Source of the DNA: Eggerthella sp. YY7918
GTDB taxonomy: Bacteria > Actinomycetota > Coriobacteriia > Coriobacteriales > Eggerthellaceae
NCBI RefSeq assembly: GCF_000270285.1
Contig: NC_015738.1
Location: 992,001 to 1,056,000 of the forward strand
Direction of reading: 5' to 3'
Length of the DNA: 64,000 nt
This document shows positions 2,673 to 44,105 of the stretch, in pieces (position 1 is the stretch's first letter; every line of letters begins with the position of its first letter). Made by a program: the position numbers and the translations under genes. The notes under the pieces were generated by a model. The model ran no database searches, was not told the DNA's origin, and worked only from the letters and a program-made list of their open reading frames with translations.

Positions 2673-3139
2673 ACTTTCAGCATTATATGCACTTGCGTAA
2701 GATTAATTATAAAGCATCAACTCGATCTCGAGTAAACAAGCAAGTTTTACAGAGTTTTCTTCTTCGCTGTATAAGGTTCGGCCAATACATTATTACCAAT
2801 TGCTTTTCTATTTGAAAGTATGAAGTTGAATTAATCAAGCATAATGGACACTTTTTTATTTTGCATAGGATCGTATTGTCGAGAAATATAGTAGCTGCTG
2901 ATTTATTCTTTGGCTTTGCACCGCAAAAGCCGTTTTAAATAATACTGGATTACATGTGCATCAATGTTCCAAAGTAGTATGAAGAGAGTGCCTGATGTTC
3001 TGCTGTTGTTTCGCCAAAGTTTGTATGCTGTTTTATTGCCGTACGCTTGATCTTGACCATTTGCTCTGGTGCGAAGAGTGTCAAGTTTGTTATGCTTGGA
3101 GCAATCCAAAAGCAGATAAATCGTCGAATGGAGAGCGTT
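2673..3139. other. Divergent intergenic region between the pse arm and the protease-muramidase gene
   Basis: This 467-base AT-rich stretch separates the leftward pse operon from the rightward giant secreted protein, so it must carry both promoters. A perfect minus-strand TATAAT lies at 2706-2711, but no good -35 sits at the proper distance. A second TATAAT at 2682-2687 is too close to the pseF start to be convincing. I see no RNA gene, no terminator and no convincing coding remnant. The rightward frame is open from a TTG at 3047, so part of this stretch could be coding if an early start is used. Confidence 0.5.
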
Positions 3140-25849: not shown

Positions 25850-27940
25850 ATGTGGATCGAGTTTTGCTGTGCGTTTATAGTGATCGCCGCGCTTCTTTAT
25901 GTGCCGGGCTGTCTATTCTTAAGAGCATTTCGTTCTAGTTGGCTGTCTAGCATCGTATGTGCCCCTTTTTTTACCGTGGCGTCTTACAGCCTGCTGAGTA
26001 TTTTATATGCTAAGTTTGGTATATCGGCATCCGCCCTGACCCTTGCAATCCCTTTGACGATTATCGAATGCATCATTTTTCTGTGTATGCATCTGCGCGA
26101 AGGGAAGCGGCCTTGCACAAAACCTCAAAGGGTACTAAAAAGATTTTCTGACCTTGTCAATTCCGATTGGCTTGTCCTATTTTGCTATATTGGGTTTGCA
26201 GCCATAGTTGCTCTTTTCTATTATATTAAAACGCTCGATGGTGCGAGTTCTTTTGCGCAGGATAGCGATAATAGCTGGCATCTTTCACTGATTCAGTCAT
26301 TTTGCCAATCAGGAAATATGTCCATATTTGATGCAACCCTTTTTCATGATTTAAAAAATTCAAACTATGAGACCTTGGTGCCAAGTGTCGGATCATTTTA
26401 TCCAGCTGCTTGGCACATTATTGCTGCTTTAGCAGTGCAGCTTGTCGGGGTCCCTGTTTCACTTGCTGCAAATGCTGCGAATTGCGTTTTCCTAATACTC
26501 GTTTTCCCTTCAAGCGTTTTTATGCTTTTACGAGAATTATTCCAGGGGCACAACCGAATACTTGTTTTGCTGGGGTCGTTGCTATGCCTTGCATTCGCTG
26601 CTTTTCCTTGGGGTATGCTTGTATCTGTTTCGGGACCGCTTTTCCCAAATTTTGCGGGTTTTTCGCTAATCCCTCTTTGGATGGCGCTTTTTATTCGGCT
26701 TTTTAGTGATGTGTCCAGTATTTTTAGGGCAAAGTTGATCTGTTGTCTCTCTTTTGGAATAGTGACATTGGCCTCTCTTCATCCGAATACGCTTTTTACA
26801 ACGGCACTCTTGCTAGTGCCTTTTTGCTTTTGTAAGCTTGTTTCTTACGCGATGAGTGGTGATGTATCTTCGACTATAAGAGTTCGTCGTTCGATAATTA
26901 GCTGTATTGGTTTTGCTGTCTTGGTGGCTGCAATTTGGTATATAGCTTTTTCATCGCCGGTTTTTTATAGCATTGTAAATTACAATTGGGTTTCTTATGC
27001 CAGCCCACGACAAGAGTTTATTAATATTATTACGTTGGCTTTTAGATTTCCAGCAGCTCAGATAACGCTTGCCGTGTTGGTCGCTGCGGGCTTACTATAC
27101 TCCGTATGGGAGCGAAAATATCTATGGCTTTCCATTTCTTATAGTATTGCATGCTTCTTTTGTTTTGTTGGAGCTACTACCGATGGCGCATTCAAGAGTT
27201 TCTTGACGGGTTTTTGGTATACCGATCCGTATAGGCTTGCGGCTATAGCAGCCTTGGTTGGCATCCCTATTGCAACGCTAGGTTTATATGCATTTTTAAG
27301 AATTATAAAGAGAGTAATGAATGTTTTGGTTTCGTCGGATAGAAAATTTCGCGGTACCTCAATATTGGCAACCGCTACTCTGATTTTTTTTGTAATCTCT
27401 GCTTATTACCCAAATTATGATGCTCCGGGTTTTGGACCCGTTGAAACGGGATTGGGTTATTATGAGGCGTGTTCGACTGCGGCTAATCTGCAGGATCGTG
27501 ACAATTTATACGATCGAGAAGAGGCGGATTTTGTGCGGCATGCTAAAGATATCGTTGATCAGCACTACTGTATATACAACAACGCCGACGATGGCAGCCC
27601 TTTCGCTTATGCGTTCGAAGGTCTAAATTTATGTTATCGACGATCGGCTGCGCAACTGCTGGATGGAGGGGAATCTCGACAAAGTGAGCTTCTGAGAGAA
27701 AAAATAGATCAACTTGCCTACAATGAAGATGTTCAAAAGGCACTTAAAGATGCAAACATAAAGTATATTTTGGTACTAGATCTAGGCGGTAAGATTACTG
27801 AGGAACGCTGCTTCTATGGTTACTATACTCCCCAAAAGTGGCAAGGGATAAATGCCATTGACGATAATACTCCAGGCCTCAAGGTTCTTTTAAGTGAGGG
27901 AGATATGAGGCTCTACGAGATAGAATTAGAAGAAGGATAA
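25850..27940 (+). CDS. DUF6541 polytopic membrane protein
   Basis: This 696-residue protein has about 12 to 14 hydrophobic segments from residue 1 to about 520, followed by a soluble C-terminal part of roughly 170 residues. The layout and the N-terminus match DUF6541, a family common in actinobacterial glycan loci. An extracytoplasmic-loop motif with Asp (SFAQDSDNSWHLSLIQSF) and a later FYPAAWHIIAALAVQ stretch resemble GT-C glycosyltransferases, so it may transfer a lipid-linked sugar on the outer face or act as a polymerase. The start is ATG at 25850. Its 3' end overlaps the convergent ABC ATPase gene by 28 bases. Confidence 0.75.
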   Translation: MWIEFCCAFIVIAALLYVPGCLFLRAFRSSWLSSIVCAPFFTVASYSLLSILYAKFGISASALTLAIPLTIIECIIFLCMHLREGKRPCTKPQRVLKRFSDLVNSDWLVLFCYIGFAAIVALFYYIKTLDGASSFAQDSDNSWHLSLIQSFCQSGNMSIFDATLFHDLKNSNYETLVPSVGSFYPAAWHIIAALAVQLVGVPVSLAANAANCVFLILVFPSSVFMLLRELFQGHNRILVLLGSLLCLAFAAFPWGMLVSVSGPLFPNFAGFSLIPLWMALFIRLFSDVSSIFRAKLICCLSFGIVTLASLHPNTLFTTALLLVPFCFCKLVSYAMSGDVSSTIRVRRSIISCIGFAVLVAAIWYIAFSSPVFYSIVNYNWVSYASPRQEFINIITLAFRFPAAQITLAVLVAAGLLYSVWERKYLWLSISYSIACFFCFVGATTDGAFKSFLTGFWYTDPYRLAAIAALVGIPIATLGLYAFLRIIKRVMNVLVSSDRKFRGTSILATATLIFFVISAYYPNYDAPGFGPVETGLGYYEACSTAANLQDRDNLYDREEADFVRHAKDIVDQHYCIYNNADDGSPFAYAFEGLNLCYRRSAAQLLDGGESRQSELLREKIDQLAYNEDVQKALKDANIKYILVLDLGGKITEERCFYGYYTPQKWQGINAIDDNTPGLKVLLSEGDMRLYEIELEEG

Positions 27941-29775
27941 CTCGAAAAAATTTCCGGTGCTTGTTTTGCTCTGTCCAATACCTTTGCCAATAGTGCCTTG
28001 TCTTGGTCACTGAATTGCGTATGATCTCCAAAAAAGACTACCTTGGAGAGCATGGATCTCTTCGCTTCAATGTAGTCAAAATTATTTGTGATACTGTCGA
28101 GATTTTGTGCGTCCTCAACCAAAACAATCGCATTGCGTTTTTTAATAAGTGTTCCCATAGTTAGCGCATCTGCTGGATTCCAGATAGGTACGATAAAGGC
28201 TTCAAACCTTTTTGCGGTAAAGTCATCATGGTCTTCTATCCATTCATTGATAATATTATTTGCATCGAAGGGGTCTTTTCCGCAAAAACGCCTTATGGGG
28301 ATATGGGCCTTCTTAAGAGGTGCAAGACAATCTTCTTTGAAGACATCTTCGCCACCAAGAAGGAGGATTTCCTCAAAAGTTCCTGAGCACAATGTATGCA
28401 TAACGTCATCGCTAATAACATCTTTTTCAATGCAGTAAAACAGGGGAACCTTATTTTGGTAGGTATAGGGCATGAAGCACAGAATGTCTCCAAGGCCTTC
28501 TTTGTAAGTAAGAATTGCTTTGCGTCCCCAGTCGGGTTCATTCTGCTGAAAAAGCGCGTAAGCAAGACGCTCTTCAGTATCTTGATCGAAGCGTGTTATT
28601 TTTGCTTTAGGGGCAATGGCTCTCAGTTGCTTTATGACAGCATCTGATATGGCCTCAATTCCGCCTAATACAGCAATGTGTGCAGGTAGAATTTGGCGAA
28701 TCTTTTGATCGACAATATCAGGCAGTCGGTCGTGCCGTGTAAGCAAAATAGGCGAATCACTTAGGCTCGAATAAGCGTTTGCCAACATGCAGATGGCTTG
28801 GTTTTCGCCCGGTGCGAGTACTATTGAAGTAATCTCGCTATCTAATTCTTCAAGCAGTTTTACTGGTGTAGTGTACTTATTGTCGCCAGCAAAAGTTTCT
28901 ATGAGTTCATCTTCTGTTGAAGATGGCTCCCGAAGTAAATTAAAAATGCGTTCCTCTGATTCTGGAGAACCGATGTGTCCGCCCAGGACGCGATACACCT
29001 GGCAGACATCACGTGCACTGCCGCTTATACGAATATGTCCTTTTTCGATCCATATTGCTTTGTTGCACAGGCGCTCTATCTGATCGTTATCGTGAGACAC
29101 GATCAGGACAGTCACCTGATGCTCTTTGATAAGGGATTGAATTCGCCGCTCGCATTTTTGCTGGAACATAAAGTCGCCGACAGATAGCACTTCGTCAACA
29201 ATCAAAATATCAGGAATAATAACAGTTGCAATAGCGAAAGCGATACGTGCAACCATGCCGGACGAGTAATTCTTTAAGGGCATATCAAGAAACTTCTTTA
29301 TTTCAGCAAATTCAACTATTTCATCGAAGTGTTTTTCAATAAAGTCTTTTGAGTAGCCAAGAAGTGCTCCGTTTAAGTAAATATTCTCGCGAGCGGTTAA
29401 CTCCATGTCAAAACCCGCACCAAGCTCAATGAGAGGGGCGATGTTGCCACGAATGGTGCATGTGCCTTCGGACGGCTCTAGAACTCCCGCAATAATCTTG
29501 AGGAGCGTTGATTTTCCTGACCCGTTTGTGCCAAGAATTCCAAATACATCGCCTTTTCTTACTTCGAGGGATATATTGTCCAGTGCTCGAAACTCTTTGA
29601 AGTGCAACTCTCTGCGAGCGAACGCGATCGCATATTCTTTCAGACTGTTAAGTGTTTCGTTTGCTATATTAAAACCCATAGAAACGTTGTTGACACTAAC
29701 CATAATCTCGCCATTGCTGTTTTCGGCGATATCGGCGTTCGAACCTAGAAATGAGGTATTAACTACTTCAGGCAT
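27913..29775 (-). CDS. wzt: Polysaccharide-export ABC ATPase (Wzt/TagH-like) with three CWB2-like repeats
   Basis: The N-terminal 260 residues form an ABC ATPase of the Wzt/TagH group: Walker A GTNGSGKST, GFDMELTARENIYLNG, signature YSSGMVARIAFA, Walker B ILIVDEVLSVGD and switch His in VSHD. Beyond residue 290 there are three tandem repeats of about 100 residues. Each has a strand-rich segment followed by an ILGG-like turn (HIAVLGGIEAIS, EILLLGGEDVF, VVFFGDHTQFS), and the last opens with CGKDPFDANNII. This is the pattern of the cell-wall-binding CWB2 repeat. No membrane segment separates the two halves, so these repeats should be cytoplasmic. The ATG at 29775 (AGGTGG upstream) was chosen. It pairs with the permease gene upstream. 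Confidence 0.87.
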   Translation of the reverse strand: MPEVVNTSFLGSNADIAENSNGEIMVSVNNVSMGFNIANETLNSLKEYAIAFARRELHFKEFRALDNISLEVRKGDVFGILGTNGSGKSTLLKIIAGVLEPSEGTCTIRGNIAPLIELGAGFDMELTARENIYLNGALLGYSKDFIEKHFDEIVEFAEIKKFLDMPLKNYSSGMVARIAFAIATVIIPDILIVDEVLSVGDFMFQQKCERRIQSLIKEHQVTVLIVSHDNDQIERLCNKAIWIEKGHIRISGSARDVCQVYRVLGGHIGSPESEERIFNLLREPSSTEDELIETFAGDNKYTTPVKLLEELDSEITSIVLAPGENQAICMLANAYSSLSDSPILLTRHDRLPDIVDQKIRQILPAHIAVLGGIEAISDAVIKQLRAIAPKAKITRFDQDTEERLAYALFQQNEPDWGRKAILTYKEGLGDILCFMPYTYQNKVPLFYCIEKDVISDDVMHTLCSGTFEEILLLGGEDVFKEDCLAPLKKAHIPIRRFCGKDPFDANNIINEWIEDHDDFTAKRFEAFIVPIWNPADALTMGTLIKKRNAIVLVEDAQNLDSITNNFDYIEAKRSMLSKVVFFGDHTQFSDQDKALLAKVLDRAKQAPEIFSSYPSSNSIS

Positions 29776-29784
29776 GTTAACCAC

Positions 29785-30564
29785 CTAAACATACAAAATG
29801 AATTTCTTTTCAAGTTTACGAAATGCAAGGTAGCCAATGATGAGAATTGCCAGGCCCATTCCTAGGCAAATGAAATTTTCCATCAAGGTGGGTGTTTGCC
29901 CCCACAGTGCAATTTGGCGAAGATAAGTGATGTAGTGATACATAGGGTTAAGCTGCATCACTGGTTCCATCCAGTCGGGAATAATACTGACGGGATAAAA
30001 AAGCGGCGTTGCGTAAGTCCAGGCTGTTATCACAACACTCCATAAATGGGCGATATCGCGAAAAAACACCACTAACGCTGAAAGTAGGAGCCCTAAACCT
30101 GCACTAAAAAGAAGTACATACAAAAGGAGAAGCGGAAGGAAAAATATATTAGCTGTAGGGACAATATGAAAAAAGGCCATGACTGCAGCTACCGCAATGA
30201 GCGAGAGGCAATAATTGACGAGTTGAAAAATGACTTTTTCCATAGGGAAGAGAATTTTTTCTATTCTAATTTTTTTGATAAGTGAAGAGGAGTCAACAAT
30301 TGACATCATTGCTGTAGAAGTTGAATCGCTCATGAGGCTAAAAAGCGTCGTTCCAAGAATGAGGTATAGCGGAAAGTTCTCTATATCAAAGCGAAAGAAA
30401 GTGCTGAAAACTGCTGATAGGACACACATCATAAGGAGGGGATTGAGTACCGACCATAGCGCTCCCAGAGCACTTCTGCGATACTTGAGTTTAAAGTCTC
30501 TCGACACTAACGAGGTGAGAATAAACCAATTACGGCGTATTGCTGGTTTTGATATGCTTCGCAA
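29785..30564 (-). CDS. wzm: Polysaccharide-export ABC permease (Wzm/TagG-like, ABC-2 family)
   Basis: This protein has about 259 residues and six predicted membrane helices, typical of ABC-2 permeases exporting O-antigen or teichoic acid. The N-terminal cytoplasmic helix NWFILTSLVSRDFKLKYRRSALGALWSVLNPLL is characteristic, as are DIAHLWSVVITAWTYATPLFYPVSIIP and NPMYHYITYLRQIAL near the end. The frame opens at a TTG at 30579, but the TTG at 30564 has GGAAGG seven bases upstream and is preferred. The ATPase gene starts nine bases after its stop. Together they should export a complete lipid-linked polymer, separate from the flippase at 9841. Confidence 0.92.
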   Translation of the reverse strand: MRSISKPAIRRNWFILTSLVSRDFKLKYRRSALGALWSVLNPLLMMCVLSAVFSTFFRFDIENFPLYLILGTTLFSLMSDSTSTAMMSIVDSSSLIKKIRIEKILFPMEKVIFQLVNYCLSLIAVAAVMAFFHIVPTANIFFLPLLLLYVLLFSAGLGLLLSALVVFFRDIAHLWSVVITAWTYATPLFYPVSIIPDWMEPVMQLNPMYHYITYLRQIALWGQTPTLMENFICLGMGLAILIIGYLAFRKLEKKFILYV

Positions 30565-30775
30565 AGCAAGACCTTCCAAATAGATGTATTGCCATGAACC
30601 CCAAAAACCACCCTGCGATTATAGCCTACTTGCCAGGTGCGAAAGAGAAAGCATACAAGGATTATATGGAACTGTCTTGCGGTTTGTTTTAAGAGTGGCT
30701 GCCTAAAAGTATGCTTTGAGGTAGGGTGTGTAAGGGAACAGCTGGCTCATGTTTGTGTAGGTATACGGAGGATTC

Positions 30776-32784: not shown

Positions 32785-34575
32785 ATGGCCCTGTCAAAAA
32801 ACGAATTCGCAGTTCTGAATGCCTTGCGCACAGCTGATCCATATACTCAGCGTAAGCTTTCGGATGCTACCGGATTGTCGCTGGGGACGGTAAACTCGAC
32901 GCTCAAGGAGCTTTCGGAGCGTGGATACGTAGCAGGGGGGGGGTCACTCACTGATTCAGGGCTAGGTGCGCTCGCTCCTTACAAGGTCGATAATGCAATT
33001 ATTATGGCGGCAGGCTTGGCCTCGCGATGTGCACCTCTGTCGTATGAAAGACCGAAAGGCCTTTTTACCGTCAAGGGGGAAGTCCTCATTGAGCGGCAGA
33101 TTCGCCAACTTCAAGAAGCGGGTATCAATGAGATTTACGTTGTTGTTGGCTACATGAAGGACCTGTTCTTCTACCTTGAAGACAAATACGGTGTTCATAT
33201 TCTTGTAAATGACGAGTATTATCGGCGCAATAACACCTCTTCACTTTATACGGCGCGCTATTTTATTCGCAATTCTTTTATCTGCTCTTCTGACAATTAT
33301 TTTGTGGTCAATCCTTTTTGCGATTACGTATACGAGTCTTACTTTGCTTGCGCCTGCGCCGATGAAGACACTGACGAGTGGTGCGTTAAAACTGGCAACC
33401 ATGGTCGAATTATCGAATATGGCGTAGGTGGACACGCTGGCGATTGGTTCCAAGTTGGCGAATTTTATTGGAATAAAGAGTTTTCTCGTGCGTATATGGA
33501 CCTGCTTGAGGCTGAATACAATCAGCATGAAGTAGAAGATATGCTTCTTGATGCGTTCTTTGCAAAGCATATTGATGAGCTTGATGCCTATGTCAAGAAG
33601 TACAAAAAAGGCGACATTCTTGAATTTGATACGGTAGAAGAAATCAAGCAATTTGACGACAAGTTTATTGAGAACATGGATTCTCGTATTGTGGAAAACA
33701 TTTCAAGCACGCTGAATTGTCGTGAAGATGAAGCCACCGGCTTTGAACAAATTAAGCGCGGAAACACAAATATCATTTTCTCGTTTTGGTGCAGAGGCGA
33801 GCGCTACATTTATCGCCATCCCGGTAAAGGAAGCGAGCGAATCATTGATCGTCAACATGAGGCATTTGCACAAAAATGCGCGGATGATCTAGGAGTTGAC
33901 GGAACTACTGTCGCCATTGATCCAGAACATGGTTGGAAAATTTCTCGCTATGTTAAGGATTGCTATGATTACGAGTATCACGATAAAAAGGACGCAAAGC
34001 GCGTATTTGAGCAAATGCACCGTCTCCACGATGCCAAGATCAAGTGCGCATGGTCGTTTGACGTGGCGGAAAACGCGCGTAAATACCGTGCCCTCGCAGA
34101 AGAAAATGGCTATCGAAGCTCCTTTGACCTTGATAGCTTGAGGGGCGATATTCAGCGCGTCTATCACTTCTTTGAGGCGGACGGAGTTGAAAAGGTCCTC
34201 TGCCATAACGATGTTTGCGACACGAACATCATCCCCTCATCCAAAGCTGTTTACATTATTGACTGGGAATATGCTGGCATGTCCGACCCCTCATTTGATG
34301 TGGCGACTTATATCATCGGCGGGGAACATGCCGAGGAGGAAGTTGATGAATTGCTCGAACTTTATTTTGGGCGAGAATTGAGCAAGGCTGAACGTGCGCA
34401 TATGTATGCAGCCATTGCGCTGACAGCGTATAACTATCTATTGTGGGGTGTTTTTCGACAGAGCGTTGGCCACGATGCGGGTTCGCTTCTGTATTACTGG
34501 TACCGATATGTGAATGAATACACGCAAAGAGCGCTTGATCTGTATGCGTCCTCTGATCCGCTTACTATCCCATAG
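32785..34575 (+). CDS. HTH - CTP:phosphocholine cytidylyltransferase (LicC-like) - choline kinase (LicA-like) fusion
   Basis: This 596-residue protein has three domains. Residues 1-60 form a winged HTH (EFAVLNALRTADPYTQRKL, GLSLGTVNSTLKELSERGYV). Residues 68-300 form a nucleotidyltransferase with NAIIMAAGLASRCAPLSYERPKGL, the LicC-type start. Residues 305-590 form a choline/ethanolamine kinase with the Brenner motif VLCHNDVCDTNII and YIIDWEYAGMSDPSFDVA. LicA phosphorylates choline and LicC activates it to CDP-choline for decoration of surface glycans. The ATG has AGGAG upstream. A run of nine G at 32935-32943 lies between HTH and LicC parts. The APC permease gene follows after 11 bases. Substrate could be choline or ethanolamine. 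Confidence 0.88.
   Translation: MALSKNEFAVLNALRTADPYTQRKLSDATGLSLGTVNSTLKELSERGYVAGGGSLTDSGLGALAPYKVDNAIIMAAGLASRCAPLSYERPKGLFTVKGEVLIERQIRQLQEAGINEIYVVVGYMKDLFFYLEDKYGVHILVNDEYYRRNNTSSLYTARYFIRNSFICSSDNYFVVNPFCDYVYESYFACACADEDTDEWCVKTGNHGRIIEYGVGGHAGDWFQVGEFYWNKEFSRAYMDLLEAEYNQHEVEDMLLDAFFAKHIDELDAYVKKYKKGDILEFDTVEEIKQFDDKFIENMDSRIVENISSTLNCREDEATGFEQIKRGNTNIIFSFWCRGERYIYRHPGKGSERIIDRQHEAFAQKCADDLGVDGTTVAIDPEHGWKISRYVKDCYDYEYHDKKDAKRVFEQMHRLHDAKIKCAWSFDVAENARKYRALAEENGYRSSFDLDSLRGDIQRVYHFFEADGVEKVLCHNDVCDTNIIPSSKAVYIIDWEYAGMSDPSFDVATYIIGGEHAEEEVDELLELYFGRELSKAERAHMYAAIALTAYNYLLWGVFRQSVGHDAGSLLYYWYRYVNEYTQRALDLYASSDPLTIP
32935..32943 (+). repeat. Nine-G homopolymer within the HTH-LicC-LicA gene
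   Basis: Nine consecutive G bases encode three glycines at about residues 51-53, just after the HTH domain. A slip of one base would shift the frame and remove both enzyme domains. This is the longest homopolymer I noticed inside a gene in this window. Confidence 0.95.
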
Positions 34576-34586
34576 GGGGCGCCGAT

Positions 34587-36077
34587 ATGTCTAAGCAGAA
34601 ATTAAAGCGTGTTTTGGGCTTCGCGCCTGCATTTGGCGCTGCGGTGGGACTTGTAGTTTCGGGAACTGCGATGTTTTCCGTTGGAAACGTGGCGGGGACA
34701 ACGGGGTATGCGACGTTTCTGGTAGCGGCAATTGCCCTTGTTCCTATGATGGCAGCTGCTTTTGCTTTTGGGGAGCTTGCGGCCATGCTGCCAGGCGGTG
34801 GCATGATTTCTGACTACACTCTTCCTGCCCTCGGTCGATTTTGGGCTATGTTCTCTTTGCTGTCGGGCTATGTGTTGCTTATTGCATGTGATGGTGGCAC
34901 GCAAATTATGATAGGCGGGGCTTCTGTTGAATCGGTAACAGGCATCCCGCAAGTTGCTGTGGCGCTTATCCTTTTTAGTGTTGTTGTTATCATCAATATT
35001 GTGGGCGTCAAGGCCTATGGCACGGTGGAATCTGTTGTAACCGTTGCGATGGTTATTGTGTTTGCTGTGCTGGGAGTTCTTGGTTTTATGCATGTTGGGG
35101 AGGCTTTTGGCGCAACCCCAGTGGAAAATAATCCATCGTTTTGGCCCGAGGGTGGTCCTTCTGTTGCTTTTGCGGGCGTGGGCGCAGCAATTTGGTTCTT
35201 CATTGGATTTGAATTCGCATGCCCCATGGCCGAAGAAAACAAAAAACCGTATCGCAACATTCCTTGGGCTCTCATCTTGGGACTTCTTGCAATTTATATT
35301 GTGGATGTCGTTTTTGCGACGGCCGCAACGCGTTATACCGACGCGGCGATTCTGTCTACTTCTGCGGTGCCTCAAATTGAGGCGGCTGCGAGCATGCTTG
35401 GTTCTGCAGGGTCTGCAACCATGACCGTTCTTACCATAGTTGCATCGTTCACGACTGCGAATGCCTATTGCGCCGCATTGCCGCGCATGCTGTACGGCAT
35501 GGCTCGCCAAGGATTGATGCCAAAAGTGTTCTTGCGGATCAATCCTAGGTTTAAAACTCCGGTATGCGGCATAGTGTTTACTGGTGCGCTCATGGCCGTG
35601 ACGATTGTGTATATCAGTCTTAACGGAACCAATGCAGACACCGTTTCTTCTCTTATTTCGGTTGCTTGCATTACATGGATGATCTCCTATGCGATCGCGA
35701 TGATTGATGTATTGGTTTTAAGGCGCCGATATCCCGATTATCCTCGCTTATGGAAAGCTCCGGCGGCAAAAGTGGTGTTTCCCATAGGCATAGCCGGAGT
35801 AATCTATGCTATCTGGACGCTTTCTGATTACTTGCCAGCTGCCATGGTTGCTATGGTGGTCGTCGCAGTTTTCATTGTGATATGGGGTAGGGTCAAGAAA
35901 ATCGATTTGTTTGAAAAAGAACCAATCGGCCAGATGGCAGAGAGTATTCGGGAAACCTCCGAACATCTACCGGTATGGGACGAAGCGGTAAGCGAGTGGA
36001 TCAAAAAGAATCGTAGTCGTTCATCAGATCATGATGTGCTCTATGATGACGACGAGCTGGGTGTTGTGGGCCTGTGA
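34587..36077 (+). CDS. APC-superfamily permease
   Basis: This 496-residue protein has about 12 hydrophobic segments and the APC-type first helix LGFAPAFGAAVGLVVSGTAMFSVGN. It also has AAMLPGGGMISDYTLPALG and a helix-6-like WFFIGFEFACPMAEENKKPYRNIPWAL. The soluble C-terminal tail (about 60 residues) is acidic at the end. It probably imports a small amine or amino acid. The adjacent LicC-LicA fusion suggests choline or ethanolamine as cargo, taking the place that LicB has in other lic loci. That cargo is inference from position only. Confidence 0.82.
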   Translation: MSKQKLKRVLGFAPAFGAAVGLVVSGTAMFSVGNVAGTTGYATFLVAAIALVPMMAAAFAFGELAAMLPGGGMISDYTLPALGRFWAMFSLLSGYVLLIACDGGTQIMIGGASVESVTGIPQVAVALILFSVVVIINIVGVKAYGTVESVVTVAMVIVFAVLGVLGFMHVGEAFGATPVENNPSFWPEGGPSVAFAGVGAAIWFFIGFEFACPMAEENKKPYRNIPWALILGLLAIYIVDVVFATAATRYTDAAILSTSAVPQIEAAASMLGSAGSATMTVLTIVASFTTANAYCAALPRMLYGMARQGLMPKVFLRINPRFKTPVCGIVFTGALMAVTIVYISLNGTNADTVSSLISVACITWMISYAIAMIDVLVLRRRYPDYPRLWKAPAAKVVFPIGIAGVIYAIWTLSDYLPAAMVAMVVVAVFIVIWGRVKKIDLFEKEPIGQMAESIRETSEHLPVWDEAVSEWIKKNRSRSSDHDVLYDDDELGVVGL

Positions 36078-36640
36078 TGCGCGGGTTTCAATTCGTCGAC
36101 AACAAGGCCGCCCTAAAACTCGACGAAGTGTGCAAAAAGATGCTCGCGCTTGCAGGAGATTCGCAGCATGATCTGTCGCCTACGGGCTTGCTTGAACGAA
36201 CAATAACCATGCAAGATGAGTTCGGAGATCTTTGCGTAATCCTGAGATACGATAGGCGCAGCAAGCTGTTTGCAGTGCTTTACAATTTGCAGGTAGAGCA
36301 GTTTATAGAGAGTCCATGCAGCTGCGATGCTCGCGTCGCCGTTAATGTGAGTACAAGAAACATCGAAGTGTCTTCAGGCGATCTTAGTGCAGAACTTCGT
36401 GAAAGACTCGAAGCGCTGGTGGCATCTGATTTGTTTTCAAAGAGGCTAAACCAGTTGGATATTGTTGGGGTTTCTTTCGAAGGAGTCGCGAATCGCGGTT
36501 GGCGTATTACGCTAGAGCCCTACGTTGGGTCGTGCACGTGGAATCTTATCCCACCTGTCATGTATTTAATCGAACCGTCCGTTGGTGATTGCATGCGATG
36601 TGTGGAGTTGCTCCGTATGACGGCATCTTGTTTTTGGTGA
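36077..36640 (+). CDS. Conserved-looking hypothetical protein in the lic block
   Basis: I do not recognise this 187-residue protein. It begins at the ATG that shares one base with the stop of the permease gene, so it is translationally coupled to it. It has no signal peptide and no membrane segment. It looks alpha/beta, with a regular strand-rich centre (FGDLCVILRYDRRSKLFAVLY, DARVAVNVSTRNIEVS) and several Cys near the C-terminus (GDCMRCVELLRMTASCF). Its place between the permease and the YidC-TagF gene suggests a role in the same surface-polymer pathway. Confidence 0.6.
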   Translation: MRGFQFVDNKAALKLDEVCKKMLALAGDSQHDLSPTGLLERTITMQDEFGDLCVILRYDRRSKLFAVLYNLQVEQFIESPCSCDARVAVNVSTRNIEVSSGDLSAELRERLEALVASDLFSKRLNQLDIVGVSFEGVANRGWRITLEPYVGSCTWNLIPPVMYLIEPSVGDCMRCVELLRMTASCFW

Positions 36641-36723: not shown

Positions 36724-38634
36724 ATGGAGATGCTCGCGGGCGCTCTCTCGCTTATTCTTCAGCCTTGCTATGACATTTCGCAAAACTGGTGGATCGCCAT
36801 ACTCTTATTCACTATTATCGTGAAAATCTTATTGCTCCCCATGTCGCTGTGGTGTCAAAAAAACAGTATCGTCATGGTTCAGATGATGCCGGATCTCTAT
36901 CGCATTAAAATTAAGTATTTTGGTGATCGAGAAGCAATTGGCGAAAAGCAAAATGATATGTACAAGGAAAAGCATTATCATCCGATGCTCAGTCTTGTAC
37001 CGCTCGCTGTTCAGATTCTTATCCTCTTTGGCTTGGTGGATGTTATCCATGGCATTACCGACTATGGTGCTCCCGGAACGGAATTTTTAGGACTCATCCC
37101 CATTGAGGATGGCGGAATATCTTGGGTCATGCCTATCCTTGCTGGTCTATCGGCCGTTTTGATGGGTTATGCGCAAAACCGCATTCATCCTTTGCAGAAA
37201 GAGCAATCGACGACAGAGAAAAATATGACCAATGGTTTGTCCATTGCGCTGTCGTTCTTCCTTGGTATATTTGTGGCTGCTGGCATGGCATTCTACTGGA
37301 TATGCTCAAACCTGACTTCTATCGTCGTGCAGGTAATTTGTAACGTCATGATCAAACCGAAAAAGTATATCGATTACGAAGAATTAGAAAGTACGCGGAG
37401 TGAATTTGAAGCACTTGAAGCATTGTCTGAGCGCAGTGCGTGGTGGAAGCGCGATCCTCTTGCGAAGCGGGAAAAGCAGGATTACAAACGCTTCTTCGAT
37501 ATCGTAGGCAAGCACATTGTATTTTATTCGGAAAGCAATGGGTTTTATAAGTATTATGCAGGTACCATCGATTGGCTTTTGACCCATTCGAGTGTATGCA
37601 TTCATTACATTACAGGCGATCCCAACGATCAAATATTTGATAGGGCGAAACGTCAGCCGCGCATTCTTCCCTACTATATTGGCGAGAAAAAGCTTATCAC
37701 GCTCATGATGAAGATGGATGCCGACGTGGTGGTGCTGACGCTTGAAGATCTTGAGAACTACTACATCAAGCGTTCGTACATTCGTAAAGATATCGAATAC
37801 GTCTTTATGCCCCATCACATGACCAGTATGCATTTGATGTCACAAAAGGGCGCTTATGATCACTACGACACAGTGCTTTGCGTAGGCCCGCATCAAATCA
37901 AGGAATTAAGACGTGCTGAGGAATTGTATTCAACAGCGCCAAAGAATCTTGTTGAGTGCGGCTATAGCCTACTGGATGAAGAAATTTCTGCATATGAAAC
38001 CGTGGCGAAGAAGTGCAACGATCGTCCGCAGATTCTCATCGCACCTTCTTGGCAGGAAGACTGTCTTCTTGATTTGTGTCCTGACGAGGTGATCCGCCCG
38101 CTTTTAGGAAAGGGCTTCCGCGTTATCGTGCGTCCCCATCCTGAATACGTGAAAAGACGCGGTCCAAAATGGGAAGCTTTGCAGGCACGGTTTAGCGATA
38201 TTGACGACTCCGAGCTGCACTTTGAGAAGGACTTCAGTTCAAATGCGTCAATCTTTGAATCCGATGTTCTTATTACCGACTGGTCCTCGGTCTTTTGCGA
38301 ATTTGCCTTTACCACGCTTAAGCCGTGCGTATTCATCGATACTCCTATGAAAATTAGCAATCCGGATTACGAAGAACTGGGAATTATGCCTACCGATCTT
38401 CTTTGGCGCAAGCAGGTGGGAATTTCCTTTGAGCCCAACGATCTGGGGTCTTTGGGCAGTCAGGTTCAGTCGCTTATCACCGATCAAGTTGTATGGTCTG
38501 AAAAGATAAAAGATGTGCGGGATGAATTTATTTTCAACCAGAGTAAAGGCGCCGAAACTGCGGGGGAGTACCTATTGTCTCGTATGATTATTAAACAAGA
38601 AAGCCGGAAAGAGGAGATGACTGATGCTCGCTAA
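36724..38634 (+). CDS. YidC/Oxa1-like membrane domain fused to CDP-glycerol glycerophosphotransferase (TagB/TagF-like)
   Basis: The N-terminal 210 residues form a YidC/Oxa1-type insertase domain: WWIAILLFTIIVKILLLPMS, a cytoplasmic helical hairpin (QMMPDLYRIKIKYFGDREAI, YKEKHYHPMLSLVPLAVQ), and later helices ending FYWICSNLTSIVVQVICN. The groove Arg usual in this first helix is Lys here. After a linker, residues 255-620 are a GT-B polyglycerol-phosphate transferase with FMPHHMTSMHL, RPHPEYVKRRG and the SDYSS-like LITDWSSVFCEFAF. Such enzymes move glycerol-phosphate from CDP-glycerol onto wall or lipid acceptors. ATG at 36724 was chosen over TTG at 36706 (GGAAAGG upstream). It overlaps the next gene by 11 bases. 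Confidence 0.9.
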   Translation: MEMLAGALSLILQPCYDISQNWWIAILLFTIIVKILLLPMSLWCQKNSIVMVQMMPDLYRIKIKYFGDREAIGEKQNDMYKEKHYHPMLSLVPLAVQILILFGLVDVIHGITDYGAPGTEFLGLIPIEDGGISWVMPILAGLSAVLMGYAQNRIHPLQKEQSTTEKNMTNGLSIALSFFLGIFVAAGMAFYWICSNLTSIVVQVICNVMIKPKKYIDYEELESTRSEFEALEALSERSAWWKRDPLAKREKQDYKRFFDIVGKHIVFYSESNGFYKYYAGTIDWLLTHSSVCIHYITGDPNDQIFDRAKRQPRILPYYIGEKKLITLMMKMDADVVVLTLEDLENYYIKRSYIRKDIEYVFMPHHMTSMHLMSQKGAYDHYDTVLCVGPHQIKELRRAEELYSTAPKNLVECGYSLLDEEISAYETVAKKCNDRPQILIAPSWQEDCLLDLCPDEVIRPLLGKGFRVIVRPHPEYVKRRGPKWEALQARFSDIDDSELHFEKDFSSNASIFESDVLITDWSSVFCEFAFTTLKPCVFIDTPMKISNPDYEELGIMPTDLLWRKQVGISFEPNDLGSLGSQVQSLITDQVVWSEKIKDVRDEFIFNQSKGAETAGEYLLSRMIIKQESRKEEMTDAR

Positions 38635-40672
38635 GCGCTTGGCTATCGGACTATTTGATGCCTGCTACTTGGTGGCCGCGGCGGGTATGGTGTGCTTCGC
38701 TTGGACTGCTCCGGCGTATGCCTATGTTGATCCTTCAGTGATGACATATACCATCCAGGCTCTTGCAGGCGTTGCGGTTGCTCTGAGTGCGGTATTTGGC
38801 GTTATGTGGCGTCGTGCGCGCAAGAAGGTCTTAAAGATTCTTAATATTGACGAGAATCGTAGTAAAACAGTTGAGAACGATATTAAAAGAATTGACCCGA
38901 GCCAAGTCGCTCAGGTGGATGAGGAGTTCGTTAGCAGCTTTACCAATCAGAAGACAAAGCATTCCTCAACCGCTTTGCCGTGGTGGAAAAGGTTTTTATT
39001 CGCGCTGTGCATGATGGCTTTCTTGATGTATACCTATTTCGTTATTGCACCGTTTGAAATTGTTGGCGGCAATTCGGACAGTTTGCTCTTTGGGGTTCAC
39101 GATATTTGGATTGCAATGGTTCTGTTCGCTTTTGTTGTGGGAACTGCTGTTGCGTTGGCATTGTCTGCGCTGAAGGGGAAGCCTTTTGCTATAGCACTTG
39201 GGCTTGTCTTTTCGATAGCGCTTCTTGGGTTTTTACAAGCCTTATTCTTCAATAGCGGTCTTCCTTCGGCTGATGGGCATGCGGTGCCGTGGGATGAGCA
39301 TGCGCTCACTATGGCCGTCAATGCCTGCATCTGGCTGATAGTCATTGCGGCTTGCTTGGTGTTTTGTACTAAAAAACCGGGTCTCAGCAGGTCGCTGTTT
39401 ACCGTGTTATCCTTCGCCCTTATAGTCACGCAGTCTATTGGAATTGCCACCTATGTGAAGCATGACATTATTCTTAATGACAGGGACCCGATGGTGTCCA
39501 GAGAGGGTCTGTATGAGGTTTCCGATAAGAGCAATGTCATTGTTTTTGTGATCGACACCGTTGATACGAATCAATTTGATGCCGTGCTCGCAGAGCATCC
39601 TGACATGCTTGATGAGTTCACGGGTTTCACGCTTTTTGAGAACTCGGCGGGTGCAATGATCCCTACGTCTCACGCCATACCTTTCTTGCTTTCGGGCGAG
39701 CGACTGCAGGAAGATGAAACCTATAACCATTACATAGACACGCGATACACACGCAGTTCTTTTGTTGATGATATTGCCGATCAAAATTATTCGGTATCGT
39801 TGTATGCGGACTGTATTTTTTCGGGTGTAAATGTGTTTGGTGATAGGACAACCAACATTCATAAAAGCGATATGCTGCCGATTGATATTGTCGGAACGAT
39901 AAAGATGCTTTCGCAAGTTGCCCTGTACAGGGATGCGCCTTGGATTTGCAAACCTCTATTCTGGTACTACACGGATGATATTAGCAATGCGGTGGTTGAT
40001 GCGTCTGATCAAGTTGACGACCGACTGCGCCCTTATGTCCTTGATGACGCACAGTATTATCAGGATCTTAAAAAAACCGGGTTGTCTTTTCAGGAGGACA
40101 AGAGCGTTGATGGCGCTATGAAGTTTATTCACCTTGCAGGAGCGCATGTTCCTTATACGCTTAATGAGCATGCCCAGCTTTCTGATACCCCCACAACTCT
40201 TGAACAGCAGACGCAAGGCACCTTCGTGATTTTGCGGGATTATCTGCGCGAATTGAAGGAGCTGGGCGTGTATGACAACTCTACAATTATCGTTACGGCT
40301 GATCATGGCATATGGTATCCAACGACTGAAATCATTTCAGAACCGTCTACTCCCATTTGTCTTGTAAAGCCAGCGACCGAGCCTGGGGGGTCGTCCGAAC
40401 CGTATAAGGTGTCACTCGCTCCGGTGAGCCAAGATGATTTCCAGTCGACGGTTATGGAGGCTGTTGGCGGTGATAAATCAAAATATGGCGAAGGCATGAC
40501 GTATTTTGACGTGCCCAATACCGATCGTGTGCGGTACTACGATATGACGCGATATCCTGACGAGTCGCTCAGCCGCTTCAATGAGCTTGATCGCTTTAAG
40601 ATTACTGGCGACGCGCGCGATTTTGACAACTGGCATCTGACCGATATCAAATGGATGCGCGATGAAGAGTGA
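38624..40672 (+). CDS. Membrane-anchored sulfatase/alkaline-phosphatase-fold transferase (LtaS-like)
   Basis: This 682-residue protein has an N-terminal hydrophobic segment, a second set of four or five membrane helices (about 120-285) and an extracellular sulfatase-fold domain (about 300-680). Metal and active-site candidates are FVIDTVDTNQF (about residue 310), a nucleophile Thr in GAMIPTSHAIP (about 347) and TADHGIWYP (about 560). Related proteins transfer phosphoglycerol (LtaS) or phosphoethanolamine to polymers or lipids. The gene overlaps the YidC-TagF gene by 11 bases, so the two should act together in making or decorating a glycerol-phosphate polymer. The exact donor is not evident. 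Confidence 0.78.
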   Translation: MLAKRLAIGLFDACYLVAAAGMVCFAWTAPAYAYVDPSVMTYTIQALAGVAVALSAVFGVMWRRARKKVLKILNIDENRSKTVENDIKRIDPSQVAQVDEEFVSSFTNQKTKHSSTALPWWKRFLFALCMMAFLMYTYFVIAPFEIVGGNSDSLLFGVHDIWIAMVLFAFVVGTAVALALSALKGKPFAIALGLVFSIALLGFLQALFFNSGLPSADGHAVPWDEHALTMAVNACIWLIVIAACLVFCTKKPGLSRSLFTVLSFALIVTQSIGIATYVKHDIILNDRDPMVSREGLYEVSDKSNVIVFVIDTVDTNQFDAVLAEHPDMLDEFTGFTLFENSAGAMIPTSHAIPFLLSGERLQEDETYNHYIDTRYTRSSFVDDIADQNYSVSLYADCIFSGVNVFGDRTTNIHKSDMLPIDIVGTIKMLSQVALYRDAPWICKPLFWYYTDDISNAVVDASDQVDDRLRPYVLDDAQYYQDLKKTGLSFQEDKSVDGAMKFIHLAGAHVPYTLNEHAQLSDTPTTLEQQTQGTFVILRDYLRELKELGVYDNSTIIVTADHGIWYPTTEIISEPSTPICLVKPATEPGGSSEPYKVSLAPVSQDDFQSTVMEAVGGDKSKYGEGMTYFDVPNTDRVRYYDMTRYPDESLSRFNELDRFKITGDARDFDNWHLTDIKWMRDEE

Positions 40673-40761: not shown

Positions 40762-42507
40762 TTATCTTAGTAAAAAAGGATTAAACCCTGTTTTTGTATT
40801 TTCTACTAAGTGTATGGTTTTTTCGGGTTTTAACCCAAGCTCATCAGGTTGTTCTGTTCCAAAAAGAAATATCTGGAGGTTGTCTTTTGCGATTCTCTGA
40901 TAAAGCTCTTTAAAAATTGAGCCGATTGCTTTCTTGCTATCTTTATCGAGAGGCTTTGAGGCATGATCTATCACCAAGAAGGGTATTAATGGGTATTGCT
41001 TTTTGCCTAGAAGAAACTCCATAAAAGCGCAGTAGCCGCAAACTTGAATAAGTGTTTGTCGTGCGTGGCTTCCGCAGTTATAGTTGACAGTTCTTTTTAC
41101 GAGTTCGCCTTCGTTCTCTTCTTCACTTTCAAATTGAGGCTGAAGCGTATTGCCGTTCTTGATATAGCGAATTGAGAGCCCAGTTTTTTTTGTATCTTCA
41201 GCAACAAACGATGAAGAGCTTGCTGCGCCAGTATAATATGCTGTCACTTTCTCAGAAATCGTGTTTATGTCGTTCATGTTATCTGTCTGCTTCAGATCCT
41301 TAATCGTTTTTCGTAATTCAGTTGCCTTTTCTCTTAGATCATTTAGATTTTCTTGATGCGACTTTAAGCTAAACTCACTCAGGTAATTCTTAACAATGAT
41401 CAAAGCTGCTCTTTTTTCATCAACAGAATAGGGAGTATATTTTTTCTCATTTAAGATAATTTCCTGCTGCAATTCAACCTTAGCGGCCTTCATGTGCTTA
41501 AGAGTTTCAGCTTGAATTTTTCTATCTTTCATTGAAATAGAGCCACTCATATCCTTCAGTAGCTCCTTAGTTGAATGAACTAGGGGTGCATATAACGGAT
41601 TGCCCTCAATTAATAAATTCAGGTCTGAAAGCAGCTCAGCTCTCTTTCTATTTTCTTCTTCAATTTGTTTACTCTCGCTTAGTCTTTTGCTTAGATCGCT
41701 TATCTGATTACTAATGGAGTTAATCATAAAAGATAGCTCTGAGAGGGTTCTTGTTTTTTCGCTCCGTATTATCTCGTCATTGTCTTCAAACTCGTAGATT
41801 ATCTTTTCTATTTCTTTGATATTATTACCAGTAAACGAAACTGGGGATTTGAGTATCGCAAGCTGTTGATTAATTTGACCAATCATAAAGACTCGTTCGT
41901 TTTCTAAAGCACTCAGCCTACTTATTCTTTGTTCGAGATTTTGAAGTTCGTCTTCTTTTTCTTTAATCAGATTTGGATTCTGGTTAAATATCAGATTTAA
42001 AAGCTCTGCTTCTCTTACCCTGTATTTTGTCTGATCTGACTTATCAAAAAAATCATTTAATGCGCCCAGCCTCTTTTCCCCGAGAAAATTGAAGAGCGTG
42101 AATGTCCGATACGTCATGTTTGCATTCATAAAACTATTGACTACTTGCTGTGATGATTCGCTCGGACATAAAGCATCATTAATTAAACCTTTCAATTCTT
42201 CAAGCGTACTGCATGTTTGAAATACACCATCTCTGGAAAACATGCATCTTGGCTCGACTAAAAACCTTTGAATAGTGTACACAATTTCATCAAACTCAAA
42301 TTCGAGTGTGGCCGAAGCTATGCCGGCGAGCCCGTCTCGCTGAGATATATTAGTTTGAGTATCGCCCAACATGTAATCAAAGAAGTTATAAAAAAGTGTT
42401 TTACCTGTCGCATTGTCCCCTTGGACATAGTTCAATCCTGTAGAGAAATCGTATTCGTATTCTTTAGAAGTATCGCTCTTAAGTTTTAGCTTCGTGATTC
42501 TAAACAT
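40762..42507 (-). CDS. ABC/SMC-like coiled-coil ATPase of an ABC-three-component system
   Basis: This 581-residue ATPase has a Walker A at residues 30-37 (GDNATGKT), long central coiled-coil segments (about 185-410) and a C-terminal half. That half carries a signature-like CGSHARQTLIQVCGY and a degenerate Walker B, LIPFLVIDHASKPLD, in which Asp-His stands where Asp-Glu is usual. This layout fits the ABC component of ABC-3C conflict systems. It overlaps the middle gene by eight bases (42500-42507), and is last in the leftward three-gene operon. It probably moves along or senses DNA; its trigger is unknown. Confidence 0.78.
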   Translation of the reverse strand: MFRITKLKLKSDTSKEYEYDFSTGLNYVQGDNATGKTLFYNFFDYMLGDTQTNISQRDGLAGIASATLEFEFDEIVYTIQRFLVEPRCMFSRDGVFQTCSTLEELKGLINDALCPSESSQQVVNSFMNANMTYRTFTLFNFLGEKRLGALNDFFDKSDQTKYRVREAELLNLIFNQNPNLIKEKEDELQNLEQRISRLSALENERVFMIGQINQQLAILKSPVSFTGNNIKEIEKIIYEFEDNDEIIRSEKTRTLSELSFMINSISNQISDLSKRLSESKQIEEENRKRAELLSDLNLLIEGNPLYAPLVHSTKELLKDMSGSISMKDRKIQAETLKHMKAAKVELQQEIILNEKKYTPYSVDEKRAALIIVKNYLSEFSLKSHQENLNDLREKATELRKTIKDLKQTDNMNDINTISEKVTAYYTGAASSSSFVAEDTKKTGLSIRYIKNGNTLQPQFESEEENEGELVKRTVNYNCGSHARQTLIQVCGYCAFMEFLLGKKQYPLIPFLVIDHASKPLDKDSKKAIGSIFKELYQRIAKDNLQIFLFGTEQPDELGLKPEKTIHLVENTKTGFNPFLLR

Positions 42508-42955
42508 TTCGTATTACCACCTTCAGCATCAATGCATCCTCTACCTCATAGCACTCTTCAATTAGTTTTTCGCTAAAGGCATCGAATCGTTTCTTTTTTG
42601 ATAAAGGTGCATCTTCTCCTACGAAAACCCGGTCATCTTCTATAACTATCCAATCATTTTTACTTAGCAACAATAAGGCTTGAAGAATAAACTCTAGTTC
42701 AAAACGCAAGCTTTCAAACTGTCCGGTCGCTTCGATTGCTGCTTTGGATAGTAGATCTTTGCTGTGGTGGCCATTATATAGTGTGGTTTTTGATATACAG
42801 TGATTCTTGATAAGAAACGATAGCAGAATAGTTTTACAAACACTTAAGCCTTGCCTAGTATCAACCACTTCAACTATCGTACTGCAATAGGTGCTTAAAA
42901 TAATTGCCACCATGTCGATATATGCCTTGCTCTTATCCGATAAGTCCGGCATCAT
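42500..42955 (-). CDS. ABC-three-component system middle component-like protein
   Basis: This small, mostly helical protein has 151 residues from the chosen start. It has no signal peptide, no catalytic motif and a winged-helix-like pattern in the centre (VCKTILLSFLIKNHCISKTTLYN). Size, position and overlaps fit the middle component that links effector and ATPase in ABC-3C systems. ATG at 42955 was chosen because GAAGG lies six bases before it; ATGs at 42961 and 42952 are alternatives. It overlaps the nuclease-like gene by 23 bases and the ATPase gene by eight. The assignment rests mainly on context. Confidence 0.65.
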   Translation of the reverse strand: MMPDLSDKSKAYIDMVAIILSTYCSTIVEVVDTRQGLSVCKTILLSFLIKNHCISKTTLYNGHHSKDLLSKAAIEATGQFESLRFELEFILQALLLLSKNDWIVIEDDRVFVGEDAPLSKKKRFDAFSEKLIEECYEVEDALMLKVVIRNV

Positions 42956-44072
42956 CCTCATCCTTCCAGGAGATAAGCTGGTTTTTTGAAGTTCCTTCCC
43001 TAGTAAGGAAGATGCAGGATCCCCATTTCTCGAATTCGTTGTTTGTAAATGAATTGGCGCCTTCCTTGGTTTTTGCTAGTCTTTTTGCGGGAGTATCGAT
43101 TTCGCTGTTAGCAAGCTCGTCTTTTGCTGCCTCAAAATTGCTATAGGTAATCTCTTCTAATGAGTCGATATGCTCGTACTTTGCCCTCTCAAGAAGAATA
43201 TAGCGGATATCAGCATAGTAACTCAAATAGTATAAATGGTTAAAAAACCTGGTATTATCTTCAGAGCCAAAGCAATACCGTAATTGACGGGCCTCGCGAG
43301 TATTCCGCATGCTTGCGTCGCCGGTATCTATTGGATGCTTCGACTTCCAGAGAGGGAACGATGGCTCGAAACGTTCTTCAGAAATTCTATACGTGACATC
43401 CTCATATAGGGCCATTAGCTCCGAGTATCTTAGGATATAGGGTTGCTTGTTTTGCATGCTTGTGAGAATGCGGTGCTCTAATGTGGTAACAAACTCATCC
43501 ACTCTCTTGGTAAATAAAAGAGGAGAGATCCCTCCAGAATGAAACGGTTTCTCTAAGCTCTTTTTAATACAATCCTCTAGACCTTTGATTTGACGGTGCT
43601 CGTATCTTTCGAGAATATAATTATAGGATTTTTTTAAACTATTGTCGTCGCAGTATAAATCACGAACCCGACTGGCTAGAGACCTATTTCCCTCTTGCGT
43701 TCGAATGATTCTGACAAATTCATCAGCGCACATTTTTAAAGGCTCTTCGCAAAAGCCGCGTCCAGCTTCTTGTATGATAATAAACTTTTCAATAAAAGGA
43801 TGCTCTTTTAGGCAAATAAGCCAGTTAAACATTATCCGAAGGCAGCACTTGCTATCGATGTCAGCTTTTTTGACTTGAATAAGAGATTGGGGATAGTTTG
43901 AACCCCGAAGAAAGCCAAGACTTTCATCGTTTCCTTGCTCTCTACTAATAGACACATCGTCAACTGCTTCATATCCAATCGTTTCTCCATCTGACAACTC
44001 TGCCGATCGTAAAATGAAGTAATGAATTTGAAATACAAAGCCCGCTTGACTATGTATGCCCGAATCGTTCAC
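42933..44072 (-). CDS. Nuclease-like effector of an ABC-three-component system
   Basis: This 379-residue protein begins with a restriction-endonuclease-fold pattern seen in Cap4-like and DUF4297-like dsDNA nucleases. It has GFVFQIHYFILRSAEL, then GYEAVDDVSI (Glu35, Asp38/39) and SLIQVKKAD (Gln66, Lys68), giving the E-x2-DD and Q-x-K active site. The C-terminal part (about 180-379) is helical and unrecognised, as expected for the CTD that docks the other subunits. GTG at 44072 has AAGGAA upstream; TTG at 44075 is also possible. It is the first gene of the leftward operon and has its own promoter at 44106-44133. Confidence 0.72.
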   Translation of the reverse strand: MNDSGIHSQAGFVFQIHYFILRSAELSDGETIGYEAVDDVSISREQGNDESLGFLRGSNYPQSLIQVKKADIDSKCCLRIMFNWLICLKEHPFIEKFIIIQEAGRGFCEEPLKMCADEFVRIIRTQEGNRSLASRVRDLYCDDNSLKKSYNYILERYEHRQIKGLEDCIKKSLEKPFHSGGISPLLFTKRVDEFVTTLEHRILTSMQNKQPYILRYSELMALYEDVTYRISEERFEPSFPLWKSKHPIDTGDASMRNTREARQLRYCFGSEDNTRFFNHLYYLSYYADIRYILLERAKYEHIDSLEEITYSNFEAAKDELANSEIDTPAKRLAKTKEGANSFTNNEFEKWGSCIFLTREGTSKNQLISWKDEDDAGLIG

Positions 44073-44105
44073 CAAGGTATTCCTTAAATAGTACCTGATG
44101 AAGAA

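Follow-up and report, generated by a model that had tools for sequence, protein, structure and literature searches.

The locus described here borders on several known systems. TagF and TarL belong to wall teichoic acid synthesis, and TagF-type enzymes act at the membrane, while the YidC/Oxa1/Alb3 proteins are insertases and LtaS, EptA/MCR and PbgA/YejM combine transmembrane helices with a catalytic domain. In the sections of a preprint drawn on here, E. coli YidC, yeast Oxa1 and Get1 scramble lipids upon reconstitution into liposomes, and all tested Oxa1-family members do so in simulations (PMC10491306). In transmembrane glycosylation of the CsbB/GtcA/YfhO type, as outlined in part of PMC8035078, cytoplasmic activation is followed by a lipid carrier, crossing and outer transfer. 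We analyzed a 64,000-nucleotide stretch of Eggerthella sp. YY7918 (NC_015738.1, positions 992,001 to 1,056,000; hereafter the window, whose first base is position 1 and whose features lie on the forward strand unless marked otherwise). It carries a gene in which a YidC/Oxa1 domain (Y) is fused to a TagF-fold transferase (T), followed by a gene joining a small membrane element (d) to a membrane enzyme of the alkaline phosphatase superfamily (S). We propose that Y-T may be the inner half of a four-module transmembrane machine for headgroup transfer, made up of Y, T, d and S, by which some gut bacteria would add small charged groups to their surface.

The Y-T gene is one intact open reading frame (ORF; 36724..38634) encoding 636 aa. 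Y (residues 22-207; 36787..37344) matches PF02096 with E 1.3e-29 and a YidC in the PDB with E 3.8e-9; its structural match (6al2) comes from a Foldseek search with the whole Y-T model only, as the VIA-align match list was taken up by T. A less conserved linker (residues 216-250; 37369..37473; mean top-residue fraction 0.52) leads to T, a GT-B transferase (residues 240-629; 37441..38610) that matches PF04464 with E 1e-8 and 35 bits against a gathering score of 22.1; in a triple-fusion relative the same family scores 18.6 bits, under that threshold. The best fold matches of T are TagF and TarL, and the TagF-type His, RxHP and DxS residues are present (His364, RPHP 470-473, DWS 519-521), paired with the TagF catalytic residues by motif. 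The first-pass annotation had proposed that an insertase domain is joined to a transferase here, and had named a sequencing error as one way in which it could be wrong; the fusion is real. A contig scan gave 168 stretches encoding relatives, and in 79 of the best 80, a few of them near-duplicates, Y and T lie within a single ORF (several are truncated at contig ends; the remaining one of the 80, L036, is split by a stop), which rules out both a chance fusion and a sequencing artefact. In one further genome (G1107:C8:6845-9065) Y and T match two adjacent overlapping ORFs, either a natural split or an assembly error.

By record title the Y-T loci come from Eggerthellaceae, Atopobiaceae, Lachnospiraceae, Oscillospiraceae, Solobacterium, Candidatus Saccharibacteria and others, and the best 80 span Coriobacteriia, Bacillota and Saccharibacteria; single labels may err since many records are metagenome assemblies. 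Full-length Y-T was found in 49 of 296 sampled Coriobacteriia genomes, and one more carries it split across contigs. Outside Coriobacteriia it is rare among the genomes sampled: for a Lachnospiraceae locus the phylum yielded 2 of 398 genomes, for a Saccharibacteria locus the phylum yielded 1 of 239, and for a Solobacterium locus the family yielded 1 of 145, with the seed genome included each time. Its distribution is also patchy at close range, being present in the window's genome (G000) and absent from G001 of the same genus (g1), and present in three genomes of g42 and absent from G102. No description of the fusion was found in the titles and abstract starts among the open-access PMC papers listed.

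The d-S gene (38624..40672; 682 aa) starts within the end of the Y-T gene, overlapping it by 11 bases. It was not part of the first-pass annotation, nor were the donor genes just upstream of Y-T that are considered below. The d element (YVDPSVMTYTIQALAG, residues 33-60; 38720..38803) is a highly conserved 'YVDPS' membrane element with a mean top-residue fraction of 0.94, where the catalytic part of S has 0.54, and in many Bacillota and Saccharibacteria loci it is a separate small ORF. S comprises transmembrane helices indicated by the structure model and hydropathy (residues 120-281 in the model; 38981..39466) and a catalytic domain (39524..40669), in which Asp311, Thr348, Asp560 and His561 are invariant in 14 of 14 aligned sequences. 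Fold matches of S include sulfatases (the top rows of one search), PbgA/YejM, EptA and LtaS; the fold together with the conserved nucleophile and metal positions places it among the membrane enzymes of the alkaline phosphatase superfamily. A Thr nucleophile is of the LtaS/EptA kind. The placement of the helices relative to the domain is not supported by the model comparison, as the first whole-length Foldseek rows have an rmsd of ~10-20 A. An NCBIfam search with the window's d-S protein gave no match, and two relatives score 18.9 and 19.7 bits with the curated LTA-synthase model against a cut-off of 970.

The four modules are combined in different ways. Besides the Y-T + d-S arrangement of the window, we found all four in a single chain, Y-T with separate d and S genes, and a divergent arrangement of Y-S with T. 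Single-chain Y-T-d-S ORFs occur at L063 (cut), L065, L066 and L113-L117, where L117 and L065 are apparently one and the same contig. Of 67 testable loci, 51 have d or d-S directly 3' of Y-T, and three further loci have it fused to Y-T; another 10 among the best 80 were too short to tell. Three loci with Saccharibacteria titles (L096, L098, L100) hold a compact run of S, Y-T, d and a gene for a nucleotidyltransferase-CobD-like fusion (NTPcobD), and the genome of the last (G308) is only ~800 kb.

In the divergent arrangement, which we call type B, Y and S form one protein of 872-1059 aa, and T has its own gene next to it. Four Y-S proteins tested match PF02096 with 69.6-76.1 bits; PF00884 is over its cut-off in one of them, under it in two and unreported in one, and PF04464 is over cut-off in three of three separate T proteins. 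Y-S adjoins T at ten distinct loci (L014, L066, L108, L109, L111, L118, L128, L129, L138 and L139), L128 and L129 being two copies within one genome. T genes of this type lack an adjacent Y-S at L119 and L130; L112 has a broken Y-S gene, and at L110 the contig ends. One locus holds both arrangements side by side, a triple fusion Y-T-d-S followed by Y-S, T and NTPcobD (L066:7998-17882). Since Y-S lies beside a separate T, the link between this pathway and the Y fold is firmer than one fusion could show, and the earlier idea of an insertase fold serving as a membrane platform tied to an envelope transferase gains strength from this reciprocal arrangement. All 14 distinct separate T proteins of at least 395 aa begin with YIDPGTG[SA], after which come a hydrophobic stretch and basic residues; two shorter T relatives (L126 and L137) do not have the motif. 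If this start corresponds to d, the two arrangements would mirror each other, with Y-T + d-S in one and Y-S + d-T in the other. The motif is alike, but we do not claim a common origin, because the profile comparison is weak: one pair gave an HHalign probability of 27% over 21 columns (E 6.6e-4), and among all ORFs neither profile convincingly finds the other kind.

Co-occurrence points the same way as arrangement. A d-S protein (E 1e-25) is encoded in 52 of 207 genomes of the order and all 52 also have Y-T, which in three is split or fragmentary: the 38 of known status all carry it (G245 over two or more contigs), as do the remaining 14 (G1107 and G1110 in pieces only). These counts run from d-S to Y-T, and the d-S profile, having been built on neighbours of Y-T, may favour them. 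Six relatives recorded as having no d-S (G001, G004, G006, G084, G102 and G106) lack Y-T too, as does G007, which falls outside that record. We regard it as very probable that Y, T, d and S form one functional unit.

To what does this unit owe its headgroup? Upstream of Y-T lies a gene for a LicC-LicA-like protein (32785..34575), with a winged helix, a nucleotidyltransferase and a choline/ethanolamine-kinase-like domain (PF13412, PF12804 and PF01633, all over cut-off), which we propose as the maker of the donor. It is followed by an APC-superfamily permease (34587..36077; PF13520, E 6.2e-42), whose best NCBIfam models, an amino acid transporter (121.6 bits) and an ethanolamine permease (114.8 bits), are both under their cut-offs; uptake of an amino alcohol is possible. 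A 188-aa protein without family (36074..36640) separates the permease from Y-T. Among the 296 Coriobacteriia, all 50 genomes with Y-T have donor genes, 47 of them licCA-like and 3, exactly those without licCA, NTPcobD. Only 56 of the 246 genomes without Y-T have them (Fisher P 3.5e-27, uncorrected for relatedness; G099 and G135, with the CobD half only, are excluded from the donor count). Of 41 genomes tabulated, 17 have their donor genes no more than 10 kb from Y-T. Across 66 loci with flanks of at least 9 kb, a donor gene is present in 31 and none occurs within the examined flank in 35; the 31 are licCA or kinase (11), NTPcobD (14), phosphonate genes (5) and a nucleotidyltransferase alone (1).

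Phosphonate genes also accompany T relatives that have no Y, or no Y-S beside them. A 2-aminoethylphosphonate (AEP) transaminase (PhnW; TIGR03301, over cut-off) is encoded beside T at L126 and L130 (E 1.3e-134 and 4.6e-134) and a phosphonopyruvate decarboxylase (Ppd; TIGR03297) at L137 (477.6 bits, cut-off 312.5). Homologues of PhnW or Ppd flank Y-T at L071, L079, L083, L084, L093 and L116. A literature search for serine-phosphate decarboxylase pathways returned no match, and a looser query had eukaryotic lipid papers among the matches listed.

These genes bear on whether T instead builds a teichoic-like polymer as a phosphotransferase that uses CDP-glycerol or CDP-ribitol, in which case S would be a partner resembling LTA synthase. 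TagF and TarL are after all the best fold matches of T, its Pfam family is named after CDP-glycerol, and S resembles LtaS among others. However, TagD, the enzyme for making CDP-glycerol (TIGR01518, cut-off 165.4), is over cut-off in just 4 of 47 fusion genomes, with eight weaker matches (four at 115-124 bits and four weaker still), and has none in the window's single-contig genome; the search was for TIGR01518, and other CDP-glycerol routes and the CDP-ribitol genes fall outside it. The donor genes nearby, moreover, point to amino alcohols or phosphonates. Because licCA, CobD-like and phosphonate genes are present and TagD is mostly absent, a CDP-amino alcohol or CMP-phosphonate is the more likely donor. 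By these gene contents we consider it likely that the group transferred is an amino-alcohol phosphate or phosphonate and not glycerol phosphate, and the teichoic alternative decidedly improbable. 'Teichoic glycerophosphotransferase', the name first given to T, is thus probably a wrong label; what holds of that interpretation is the tie between an insertase fold and an envelope transferase.

Taking together the architecture, module shuffling, co-occurrence, catalytic motifs and donor-gene association seen in these sequences, we infer a relay across the membrane, with T cytoplasmic, d a small membrane element and S a transferase at the outer face. The LicC-LicA-like protein or other enzymes would produce a CDP- or CMP-activated amino-alcohol phosphate or aminoalkyl phosphonate, and T would load the headgroup onto a membrane lipid acceptor in the inner leaflet. 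The charged lipid head would then cross to the outer leaflet through the thinned, hydrophilic groove of Y, probably with d, and S would transfer the headgroup, rather than hydrolyse it, onto an outer acceptor. The scrambling of lipids by Oxa1-family insertases (PMC10491306, in the part used here) supports the crossing step. A wall polysaccharide is a plausible, putative acceptor because polysaccharide genes lie nearby, namely a TagH/Wzt-like ABC exporter and GlfT2-like and other glycosyltransferases. The exporter pair (27913-30579, reverse strand) resembles teichoic and galactan exporters, and its ATPase carries a CWB2 cell-wall-binding domain. For the relay as a whole, in which T loads, Y carries or presents and S transfers outside, we see the chances as evenly balanced.

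The groove of Y deserves separate consideration. Its charged residue is Lys (K34; codon 36823-36825) in 36 of 36 Y-T proteins, so that the positive charge is retained, and is neutral (N or Q) in eight of eight Y-S proteins. The replacement of the usual Arg by Lys, pointed out in the first-pass annotation, is weak as an argument, and we rejected it as a mark of lost insertase function, since separate YidC proteins likewise have K, N or Y at this position. In the portion of PMC8920935 on which we rely, the groove charge is termed strictly conserved among YidC homologues, helps to hydrate the groove and can in some contexts be dispensed with; Lys or Asn/Gln alone thus does not exclude a working groove. 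In a tree, the 36 Y domains of Y-T all fall into a single clade (support 100/96), the type B domains have a clade of their own (100/100), and the two do not group together. The branch that carries type B has a length of 4, the tool cautions about long branches, and several of the canonical sequences from Bacillota and Saccharibacteria match only in part; because long branches meet and these sequences are partial, two separate captures of the fold are possible, not proven. The YidC fold was possibly recruited twice, once each for Y-T and Y-S.

Y could also be a dedicated insertase that inserts or assembles its partners d and S, the fusion placing this assembly at T. The clear YidC homology and the positive groove residue retained as Lys would fit, as would the frequent encoding of the membrane proteins d and S next door, some with overlapping stop and start. 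However, Y-T is not the sole housekeeping PF02096 copy in the window's genome, which encodes an ordinary YidC of 261 aa (165.7 bits versus 107.1 for Y-T), and a second, non-fusion PF02096 ORF is present in 11 of 12 seed genomes, one assembly showing the fusion alone. A Y-S protein, moreover, would need to help its own insertion with a groove residue that is neutral. We consider this role unlikely.

A stronger competitor is that Y is a platform only, anchoring T at the bilayer and binding the acceptor or S while another protein flips the lipid. The membrane location of TagF-type action, the existence of T relatives without Y (L126 and L137), the loss of groove charge with retention of the fold in type B, and the ABC exporter encoded close by are all consistent with it. 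A plain anchor, though, needs no conserved insertase core, and Y is as conserved as T (mean top-residue fraction 0.65 versus 0.63); furthermore the Y fold recurs in both arrangements, attached once to T and once to S. We rate the platform as a genuine possibility that falls well short of even odds. Action of Y in lipid translocation is itself tentative, somewhat below an even chance, and we are a little more doubtful of the fuller proposal that the YidC/Oxa1 fold was recruited, possibly twice, as a lipid-translocating core handing a T-made headgroup-lipid to S. Should that proposal be true, it would give an insertase fold a cellular role in lipid transport and not in protein insertion, and would fill in the missing late step of some pathways that decorate surfaces with amino alcohols or phosphonates. 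The family names insertase, glycerophosphotransferase and sulfatase would scatter one machine across three unrelated functions.

Two other loci in the window were recorded. Just 3' of d-S, three genes on the reverse strand (40762-44075) include PADLOC matches to Lamassu LmuB (E 3.8e-27) and LmuA (E 1.1e-11), and the 153-aa protein between them has no match. Further upstream, a 1327-aa protein (3047-7030, forward strand) combines a subtilisin-like protease, a GH25 lysozyme-like domain and several ricin-type lectin repeats.

Compared with the YidC/Oxa1/Alb3 insertases, Y shares the PF02096 core, the fold and the positive groove residue, but is fused to T, is encoded by a second gene beside a canonical YidC and forms its own clade. 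The preprint on insertase scrambling, in the part cited, describes direct testing in cells as very challenging, partly since the known proteins have other survival-critical roles (PMC10491306); Y-T, found in only some species of a genus, usually alongside a normal YidC and fused to an envelope enzyme, offers a natural test case. T resembles TagF and TarL in fold and in its RPHP and DxS motifs, and Y-T differs from them in its YidC-type membrane domain, its amino-alcohol or phosphonate donor genes and the mostly missing TagD. Like LtaS, EptA/MCR and PbgA/YejM, S has transmembrane helices and a catalytic domain with Asp, Thr and Asp-His; unlike them d-S has d and is tied to Y and T, and two relatives lie far under the LTA-synthase cut-off. 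The proposed logic is that of transmembrane glycosylation, where, according to the sections of PMC8035078 used, the work is divided among different parts, namely a GT-A enzyme, a flippase of the GtrA or Wzx type and a GT-C enzyme. Of the two proteins compared with these families, Y-T belongs to others and d-S matches none of them. The donor genes are of the kind described in PMC6697681 for PntC phosphonyl tailoring and Lic phosphocholine (LicC/PntC-like nucleotidyltransferase, Ppd and AEP transaminase), and that study, in the parts drawn on, places such genes also in Atopobium and Olsenella. That paper mentions LicD-like phosphotransferases or glycosyltransferases, and its main text has none of the words YidC, glycerophosphotransferase and sulfatase. 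Rice et al. call phosphonyl tailoring after C-P bond formation enigmatic (PMC6697681), and the Y/T/d/S unit is a concrete candidate for its late step. Altogether, each of the folds is known, while the combined unit, with the function we infer for it, is new as a system and matches none of those compared.
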